Below are positions 2,779 to 37,849 of a stretch of DNA of 64,000 nt, in pieces. The stretch is from NCBI GenBank assembly GCA_030062745.1, contig CP099851.1:5891661-5955660 (forward strand), written 5' to 3'. Under the pieces are notes generated by a model, which saw only the letters and a list, made by a program, of their open reading frames with translations, made no database searches and was not told the origin of the DNA. How positions within the stretch are numbered: the stretch's first letter is position 1; every line of letters begins with the position of its first letter. The DNA is from Capitulum mitella (Eukaryota; Arthropoda; Thecostraca; Pollicipedomorpha; Pollicipedidae). The position numbers were made by a program, and so were the translations under genes.

Positions 2779-5700
2779 GTCAGCGCCGGTTATGGGCAGC
2801 TGGTGGCGCCGGCCGCGCCATGGGCCGGCACTTGTCGCAACGGCCGGCCCGGCAGAGCGCCGGTGCGGCCCGGCGCGCGGGTTATGGGCAGCTACTGCTC
2901 GGGGCGGAATTTCGTGAGCCGGCCAGGCATGTGCGGTGCGCCGTGCGGTGCTGATGACGCGTGACGGTGATGCTTTGTGGTGGGTTCGACTGGCGGCGGT
3001 CTGTGCCGGGTTGGTGTGGTGAGAAGTCGGCGCGTTGTGTTCGCCTTGTTTGCGTCTCAGGTGATGAAACATATTCGTCTGATTGTGATAAGGAGGAAAA
3101 CATGGACGGCTTTGATCGTGACTCACTCACTTCCACGGAAGAGTGCGATAGTGATTTGCTGTCATTAACCAATTAATTGGTGGAACGCGGATGAGGTGGT
3201 CCGAATTTTCATGTTAACACCTGTCCATTTCGTGGTTTGTTTCGTCTGCCGTGACCGGTGAGTGTTGACCTATGACATCGCTCTCTCTCCCCGATCCAGC
3301 CCGACCAGCGGCTACCTGTACATCACCATCATCTACAACTTCAGCGTGTCGCTGGCGCTGTACGCGCTCTTCCTGTTCTACCACGCCACGCGCGAGCTGC
3401 TGCGTCCGTTCGACCCGGTCATCAAGTTCTTCACCGTCAAGTCGGTCATTTTCCTCTCGTTCTGGCAGGGTGAGCGCGCTGCTGTCCGCCGGCTGTGGCT
3501 CGGTCGGAAGGAGGGCTATGGCCGCGCGGCCGTCCGGCGTCACTGCCGCTGGAATGCGTCTGTGTTATGATTAAGATGGCATATGACAGATTGTCATAAC
3601 GCCTTACATTGTGGGGGTGTGTGTTTGTTTCGTTTTTAGGTCGGCGGGCAGTGGCGGGGCGTCAGACTGAAGTTGTCTCTGTACAGCGTTTGTTTTCGTA
3701 TTGCAGCATGTTTTCTTTGTCGTGTGTGGATGTCATGTAGCTGCTCCGTGTGGGTGTCCCTGAATGTCAATAACCGGCTTAAATCTCTTGTAACGACCAA
3801 GCCACGAGCTGCGCCACAAATGGGGCCATTCTGGCCGCTTTAACTGCAGTCAGTCTGCGAAGCACCTCTTTATTTCTGGGCTTGGCCCGGTCGGCTTAGT
3901 CTGCCTGGAACCCATCAGGGAGGGGAGGGGGGATTACCCTGTGATTGCGTGCATCAGACTGGCCCGCCCAGTGGCTCAGTTAGTCACGGTGTGACGTCAG
4001 GCCATCTCTCAGTCGGCCTTGTTGAACGCCTTCCTTCTGCACCGTCTTGCGGCGGGTTCATGGGCGCCAGATGACCATGACTTGTTGCGTCAGACCATCC
4101 CACGGTCATTGCCATACGGTCACCACTGCCGACGGCACCGTCAGTAGGATTTCGTCTGCTGTGACACAGCGTCCCTGATCCGCCGGGCGTGCTGTTCGCG
4201 ACCCTTGGATCGCTGTGTCGGCGCGGCGTCCGTCGGCCGCGGTTCCGAGCTTGCTGTCCACGCTGTCGCTCCGAGTCTGCTGCCTTTTCTGTGGCGGTCA
4301 GCCGGGCCTGCTGTAAGCTGGCGCCCTCCCTGACCCTCCGCCGCCGGCAGGGGTCCTCCTGGCCATCCTGGAGTGGAGCGACGTGATCGAGGAGAAGACG
4401 TTCATCAACCCGGGAACCATGTCGGCCGGCTACCAGAACTTCCTCGTATGCATCGAGATGTTCTTCGCCGCCATCATGCTGCGCTACGCCTTCCCGCACA
4501 CGGTGAGGCGGCGCCGATGGCGTCCTGCCGTCCGGGCGGCCTGGTCTGGCGGTTATTGTGTGGGACTTCGGGCTGGTGCTTCGTCGGCGTAGTCTAGCTT
4601 GTGTAAATGCGCAGGGCGAACTTGACGACTTTCTATTGTATCGTTTTAAACAAGCAATATTTTCTCTCAAAAGGAGATGTTCTGAGGGTCCCCTGTTGAG
4701 GAGCGCTTGTCGTCTTATTGCTAACTCAGATAGCGAAAATCCTTGTGTGAAGCAAGCGCTGGAATGGGGACGTATTTTCCGTGGTTGATGTTTGACTTTG
4801 TGCAGATGTTTTGGAAGCGTGTTCTGTGTGTGCGTGCTGGACCGGCCGGCCCGCGCTGACCAGTGCTCCCCGGCTGGCTCCCCCTCCCCATGTGCCCCAG
4901 GCGTACTCGCAGGAATGTTTCCCTGACTGACTGGGTGCTCCCCGCGGTGTGCCACAGACGTATTCGCAGGAATGTTTCCCTGACTGACTTGGTGCTCCCC
5001 GCTGTGTGCCACAGACGTATTCGCAGGAATGTTTCCCTGACTGACTGGGTGCTCCCCGCCGTGTGCCGCCGACGTACTCGCAGGAATGTTTCCCTGACTG
5101 ACTTGGTGCTCCCCGCTGTGTGCCACAGACGTATTCGCAGGAATGTTTCAGTGACTGACTGGGTGCTCCCCGCTGTGTGCCGCAGACGTACTCGCAGGAA
5201 TGTTTCCCTGGCTGACCGGGTGCTCCCCGCTGTGTGCCGCAGACGTACTCGCAGGAATGTTTCCCTGACTGACCGGGTGCTCCCCGCTGTGTGCCGCAGA
5301 CGTACTCGCAGGAATGTTTCGGTGATGCCGGTGGCCGCTCCGTCACCATGACCAGCATCTCCAGCTCGCTGAAGGTACGGACGGCCCGGGCGGTGGCGGC
5401 GGAGGCAGAGGCGGGCCCTCGCCGGAAAAGACTGCCGGGACCGGGCGGCCGCCACGCCTGCAGGGCCTCCTCGGAGGGCTGACGGGGAAGGGGGCTCGAG
5501 AGCCGAGCCCCGGCTGGGGCGGAGGGGGTCTCTGATGGAGGGAGGGAAATGGCCCAACTGGTGGGTGAGAAGCGATGACGGGGCGGAGTTAGGGATAGGT
5601 CTTAGGGGGGAGCAGAGGAGGGATTGGGGGACAATGGGTAGGGAGCTGAGAAAACTAAGACCACGAGGGCTCATAGTTTGTGAGACTTAAGCAGGCGAAG

Positions 5701-37849: not shown

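Follow-up and report, generated by a model that had tools for sequence, protein, structure and literature searches.

Mirage-like tandem arrays at exon–intron junctions of three genes in the barnacle Capitulum mitella

Six tandem arrays or duplications lie at splice junctions of three genes within a 64,000-nucleotide stretch of the Capitulum mitella genome (hereafter the window; contig C13, positions 5891661-5955660, in a genome of 477,042,490 bases in 16 contigs). Sixteen chromosomes are given for two stalked barnacles in a published figure legend (PMC11331182). The genes are a TMEM184-like gene on the plus strand and, on the minus strand, a BRI3-like exon and a TUG/ASPSCR1-like gene. In our judgement, with a probability of roughly 0.7, these arrays are intronic minisatellites of the kind described in lancelets as mirages, which arise by ordinary duplication and are tolerated at junctions because their extra copies are spliced out.

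Anatomy of the junction arrays

A repeat unit containing the exon–intron boundary of a real gene, which is the anatomy of a mirage, is found in arrays 1, 4, 5 and 6, in array 2 as a two-copy case and in array 3 marginally (Table 1). The first-pass annotation had counted all six as junction arrays. Four of them (at 5300, 33256, 37144 and 37669) stand as multi-copy TRF arrays, each spanning a splice junction of a homology-supported gene, whereas the one at 8756 is an old two-copy duplication (mean column identity 77%, no TRF array) and the one at 14228 is marginal, with about five exon bases fitting the unit by eye and TRF reporting 14409-14452 only. Both types of boundary are hit, namely, three acceptors (one of them marginal) and three donors, as the annotation had it. 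The units of the six arrays, together with those of two further arrays from the sample described below (L018 and L040), appear by eye to be unrelated to each other, as the same source had noted for the six.

Table 1. Genes, junction arrays and associated features; positions are those of the window or, for L018 and L040, of the sampled locus
Feature	Position	Strand	Description
TMEM184-like gene (Solute_trans_a)	2611..10969	+	7 exons in window; rest upstream of window
TMEM184-like exon D	5300..5374	+	Continuous with A. amphitrite orthologue
Array 1	4891..5320	+	57 bp x 7.5 (TRF); spans TMEM184 exon D acceptor (exon start 5300)
Array 2	8560..8860	+	Single diverged duplication, copies 139 bp apart; spans TMEM184 exon F acceptor (exon start 8756)
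Array 3 (marginal)	14221..14468	-	Imperfect 19-20-bp units ending on BRI3 acceptor (exon start 14228)
TUG/ASPSCR1-like gene	30995..37838	-	9 exons in window; exon ends 33821, 32670 and 31874 tentative
Array 4	33098..33276	-	36-37-bp units, 37 x 4.8 (TRF); spans TUG donor (last exon base 33256)
Array 5, distal block	35500..35784 (TRF 35500-35786)	-	More 54-bp copies past the insertion
Insertion	35785..36550		766 bp, splits array 5; starts TGTAGC, ends GCTACA, CTTA on both flanks
Array 5, exon-proximal block	36554..37175	-	54 bp x 11.5 (TRF); spans TUG donor (last exon base 37144)
Array 6	37582..37691	-	Imperfect 31-32-bp units, about 3.5-5 copies (TRF 31 x 3.5); spans TUG donor (last exon base 37669)
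Myosin array	L018:5318-5714		45 bp x 7.9 (TRF); donor 5332
Kinesin array	L040:659-795		38 bp x 3.7 (TRF); donor, exon base 776

In register, array 1 consists of eight acceptor modules, seven of which keep the AG, and its unit includes 21 exon bases and a branch-point-like CTGAC stretch. The unit of array 4 is made up of 21 exon bases (CCCGACAGACTGGTGCTGCAG) followed by intron, and that of array 5 of 32 exon bases and 22 intron bases. Donors are repeated in all three arrays of the TUG-like gene (the slash marks the splice site): the module CATYAG/GTCAST is present in 10 of the 11 full copies of the exon-proximal block of array 5, CTGCAG/GTA recurs in array 4 and G/GTGAGC in array 6, some copies of the latter two arrays being without them. 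The exon share of the unit in arrays 1-6 is about 21/57, 45/139, 5/20, 21/37, 32/54 and 12-23/31, respectively, with the junction at any phase of the unit. This is the spread to be seen if a duplicated stretch can take any position over the junction. The proposal that the arrays begin exactly at a splice site does not hold, since they take in about 5-45 exon bases. That they extend into the intron only is confirmed.

The insertion that splits array 5 is solo-LTR-like by its ends only and presumably younger than the array. Elsewhere in the window, stretches starting near 'ccctattcccggcagg' were noticed by eye on the plus strand near 18300, 22240, 55460 and 57725, with matching ends near 19480, 23450 and 60410; they probably constitute one repeat family.

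Tandem arrays are error-prone in assemblies, and the six arrays might for that reason be assembly artefacts. We consider this very improbable, given that the copies differ from each other, that a 766-bp element flanked by a 4-base repeat sits inside array 5, and that two-copy as well as multi-copy cases occur in several genes.

Host genes and continuity of their proteins

The TMEM184-like gene matches PF03619 with 202.6 bits and the BRI3-like exon matches PF10164 with 44.8 bits in Pfam. Pfam gives the TUG/ASPSCR1-like gene little support (UBX at E 1.7e-5, where no individual stretch passes; TUG-UBL1 at E 3e-4, under the cut-off); its identification follows from its orthologues, which align over 100% of the query and carry UBX and TUG-UBL1 domains. 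Among the matches listed, the nearest named proteins are those of Amphibalanus amphitrite, at 84% identity for TMEM184B-like and 56-58% for TUG-like. In that species the TMEM184-like protein P0001 and the TUG-like protein P0122 both come with a longest contig of 117,866, so their genes may be linked as they are in the window.

The exons were joined, translated and aligned with the A. amphitrite orthologues. The A. amphitrite proteins run uninterrupted across five of the six array junctions, and no array-coded peptide appears in the alignment. The continuous peptides are HTTYSQECF at junction 5300 and SAGIGDGS at 8756 of the TMEM184-like gene, and VLQGVFLS at 33256, GGKAIxRYAPRP at 37144 and QFxCxATLxEVL at 37669 of the TUG-like gene; that at 8756 is found in P0001 only, the unnamed P0002 being without that exon. 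The BRI3 acceptor at 14228 was placed by the Pfam match alone. Since the A. amphitrite proteins are continuous across five of the six junctions, we read the copies as intronic. The upstream copy of array 2, with a pseudo-acceptor before 8617, was considered as a genuine duplicate exon and rejected. Nothing in the A. amphitrite protein corresponds to it; P0001 aligns with the second copy alone, and P0002 has no such exon at all.

Alternatively, the extra splice sites could be functional, with the arrays serving as banks of alternative donors or acceptors. Array 5 is peculiar in that its 54-nt unit is open in the exon frame up to the last, partial copy, and in 3 of its 14 other aligned copies the donor scores like the functional CAG/GTCAGT. 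Its donor copies keep both phase and frame, and splicing at copy k would lengthen TUG by 18k residues. However, the A. amphitrite TUG proteins lack such repeats (3 of 3 among those listed), and array 5 has no clear third-position bias, its variable columns numbering 6, 5 and 8 at codon positions 1, 2 and 3 (15 copies). Moreover, as read by eye, the copies of array 1 meet a TGA in the frame of the exon, and those of arrays 4 and 6 meet stops. We thus regard functional use of the copies as quite improbable. A coding reading of array 5 was likewise rejected despite the open frame, as all codon positions vary and the A. amphitrite proteins are without the repeat.

The preferred reading, in which the arrays are tolerated intronic minisatellites, would proceed as follows. 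Generic tandem duplication, by slippage or unequal exchange, would yield short local duplications in introns, and a duplicated segment that chanced to include an exon–intron junction would copy the whole splice site along. If the spliceosome then used the exon-proximal site, the extra copies would leave with the intron and the protein would be unchanged. Selection would therefore hardly distinguish duplications at junctions from those confined to the intron, and ordinary array turnover would follow. With the exon-proximal site in use, all further copies would be intron by definition, hence growth on the intron side only.

Frequency of junction arrays

The frequency of junction arrays was estimated in a sample drawn independently from this genome, consisting of exons for myosin and kinesin motors, i.e. 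two conserved families and not random genes. Loci were chosen from match lists blind to repeats, with preference for exon-dense ones; out of 86 myosin and 129 kinesin exon matches, 154 were used; their 308 ends yielded 231 called junctions. The sample covers 37 loci and 276,617 bp, and 144 of the junctions belong to 72 complete introns. Expected numbers were derived from a seed model, i.e. density of intron-contained arrays multiplied by unit length and by number of junctions. With 15 TRF arrays within the 72 introns, 2 of the 231 junctions are straddled versus 2.19 expected under the seed model; for the paired junctions the figures are 1 of 144 versus 1.36, and the first 190 sample junctions had contained one straddling array. 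Placement permutations of all 100 sample arrays gave no excess of straddling either (2 versus a mean of 2.78, P 0.78).

Local duplications give a similar picture. Their coverage forms a ramp from exon to intron without a peak at the junction, with 3/231 at -60 bp (exon), 7/231 on the junction itself and 8-14 of 223-231 at +60 to +260 bp (intron). Were junctions covered like the average base of their own locus, 13.8 rather than 7 would be straddled; apart from the two TRF cases, all 7 have weak copies, with 21-25 of 36 bases matching. Taken together, the arrays of the sample give no sign of being targeted to junctions. The two TRF cases, in a myosin and a kinesin locus (Table 1), indicate that the junction-spanning form recurs outside the window. 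In a further sampled locus, a 57-bp x 9 array (L022:8628-9134) has a minus-strand unit that by eye resembles an acceptor followed by a coding stretch (CAG/AGGGACGCCGAGCTGGCC); its exon is unannotated and the array was left out of the counts.

The window differs from the sample. Within it, end-to-end annotation covers two genes, TMEM184 and TUG, which have 30 junctions, or 31 with BRI3, at whose junction TRF reports nothing; three of the TUG exon ends are tentative. TRF arrays contain four of the 30 junctions, where 0.56-0.90 would be expected; the Poisson P, calculated once the pattern was known, is 0.003-0.014, and it is 0.003-0.021 in the same post hoc test with lower TRF limits. Compared directly, 4/30 in the window and 2/231 in the sample differ with a Fisher P of 0.0018; pooled, the 6 straddlers exceed expectation with P 0.04-0.10, depending on the window expectation used. 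The window is thus a local surplus of junction arrays. An earlier base-level test of the window was partly circular, because the bodies of the junction arrays feed the intron density, and was replaced by the seed model and the placement permutations; subject to this circularity, it had given 1/13 versus 1.66 for TMEM184 and 3/17 versus 5.00 for TUG under strict settings, and 4 versus 3.61 and 4 versus 6.56, respectively, under loose ones.

The first-pass annotation had held the six cases to be more than chance and had suggested a mechanism tied to splice sites. The former is borne out in the window, by a test made after the pattern was noticed, but not in the sample; as to the latter, one of its three suggestions, a duplication tolerated through selection on the exon side, fits the data, whereas targeting of splice sites as a general rule is unsupported. 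In this sample, which stands for two gene families and not for the whole genome, arrays are not enriched at exon borders, which is largely the outcome that the annotation itself had named as speaking against its idea.

Copy number and multi-copy arrays near junctions

Three features, namely, the surplus in the window, a higher copy number of straddling arrays and an excess of multi-copy arrays near junctions, are not predicted by neutral random seeding alone. The copy number of the six straddling TRF arrays, four from the window and two from the sample, never falls below 3.5 (range 3.5-11.5), compared with a median of 2.6 among the 98 other sample arrays and of 2.0 among the 24 other window arrays (one of them with 3.5 copies or more; distal block of array 5 excluded). 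By Mann-Whitney test, the difference gives P 0.0007 overall (6 versus 122), 0.001 in the window alone (4 versus 24) and 0.04 in the sample alone (2 versus 98). Furthermore, among the 28 sample arrays that reach 3.5 copies or more, 5 straddle a junction or stop no more than 12 bp short of one, about 0.95 being expected (P 0.001 in one test, 0 of 1000 placements in another); among the 72 with fewer copies it is 1, with 2.88 expected. Both limits (3.5 copies and 12 bp) were picked after the values had been seen. With a limit of at least 3 copies, the count is 5/42 versus 1.7 (P 0.023), and with 3.5 copies and 50 bp, P is 0.018. Three of the five near-junction multi-copy arrays (L009:937-1081, L024:2889-2953 and L037:2317-2564) carry no splice-site copies; they are intronic and end 7-11 bp before an acceptor, which is left uncopied.

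These values could mean that junctions promote the birth or expansion of arrays, through R-loops, paused polymerase or conversion from a constrained exon copy, and that multi-copy minisatellites gather there. Lower variability of exon-derived than of intron-derived columns in the six arrays pooled (31/121 versus 60/141 variable, P 0.004) points in the same direction. The arrays are inconsistent in this, however: in array 5, the variable columns are 7/32 for exon versus 12/22 for intron over 15 copies but 6/32 versus 3/22 when the 11-copy block is taken by itself, and in terms of mean difference both this block and array 6 show the opposite relation. Owing to this disagreement, column variability was also dropped as support for the main reading. 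In addition to the post hoc limits, straddling as such is not in excess in the sample, be it for all arrays, as given above, or for multi-copy ones (2 versus 0.73 expected, P 0.16), the multi-copy excess fades at 100 bp (5 versus 2.44, P 0.08), and 26 of the 98 non-straddling sample arrays also have at least 3.5 copies. On balance, we find promotion by junctions unlikely.

Ordinary duplication with tolerance at junctions remains our preferred reading of the arrays. A further reading, tentative and rather doubtful, is that duplications which include a splice junction expand further, or are lost at a slower pace, than those elsewhere in introns, and that multi-copy minisatellites might for this reason mark exon borders. 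Possible routes to such growth would be, for example, re-seeding by conversion from the selected exon-proximal copy, or transcription-linked breaks at the junction.

Relation to known systems

The first-pass annotation knew of no described counterpart. One exists in lancelets, where tandem repeats across exon–intron boundaries, at either boundary, have been termed mirages and are described from the Adh3, TnC, globin and PGBD5 genes (PMC3087553, PMC3902484). According to the same reports, their units measure 10-72 bp in Adh3, about 150-160 bp in globins, and 60 and 108 bp in PGBD5; BflGb6 haplotypes differ, Adh3 is unstable in the soma, and the authors' data suggest that splicing is undisturbed (PMC3087553, PMC3902484). 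Among the matches listed in a search of open-licence PMC literature, these two papers are the only ones on mirages in the sense of boundary repeats.

Two other systems are related to a lesser extent. Intron gain by tandem genomic duplication in potato RdRp (PMC4974935) is likewise a tandem duplication within a gene that bears on splice sites; however, that case is, by its title, a gained intron, whereas the barnacle arrays duplicate existing junctions and no new intron was seen in them. Ordinary intronic minisatellites have similar unit lengths and are present in the sampled introns, but do not include the junction and have a median of about 2-3 copies here.

Such arrays load introns with competing splice sites and offer a natural testbed for site choice by the spliceosome; they may also be a source of new exons or introns. 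The features that they have in common with the lancelet repeats are copying of a 5' or 3' boundary, units of tens to about 160 bp, and an AG or GT kept in many but not all copies, while the barnacle arrays belong to another animal lineage and are known from the DNA of a single assembly. Judged by their sequence, they fit the anatomy of mirages, with an unproven twist in copy number, in a lineage for which the literature searched gave no report. This would extend the mirage phenomenon from lancelets to an arthropod and suggests that it is a general by-product of minisatellite formation and not a lancelet oddity.
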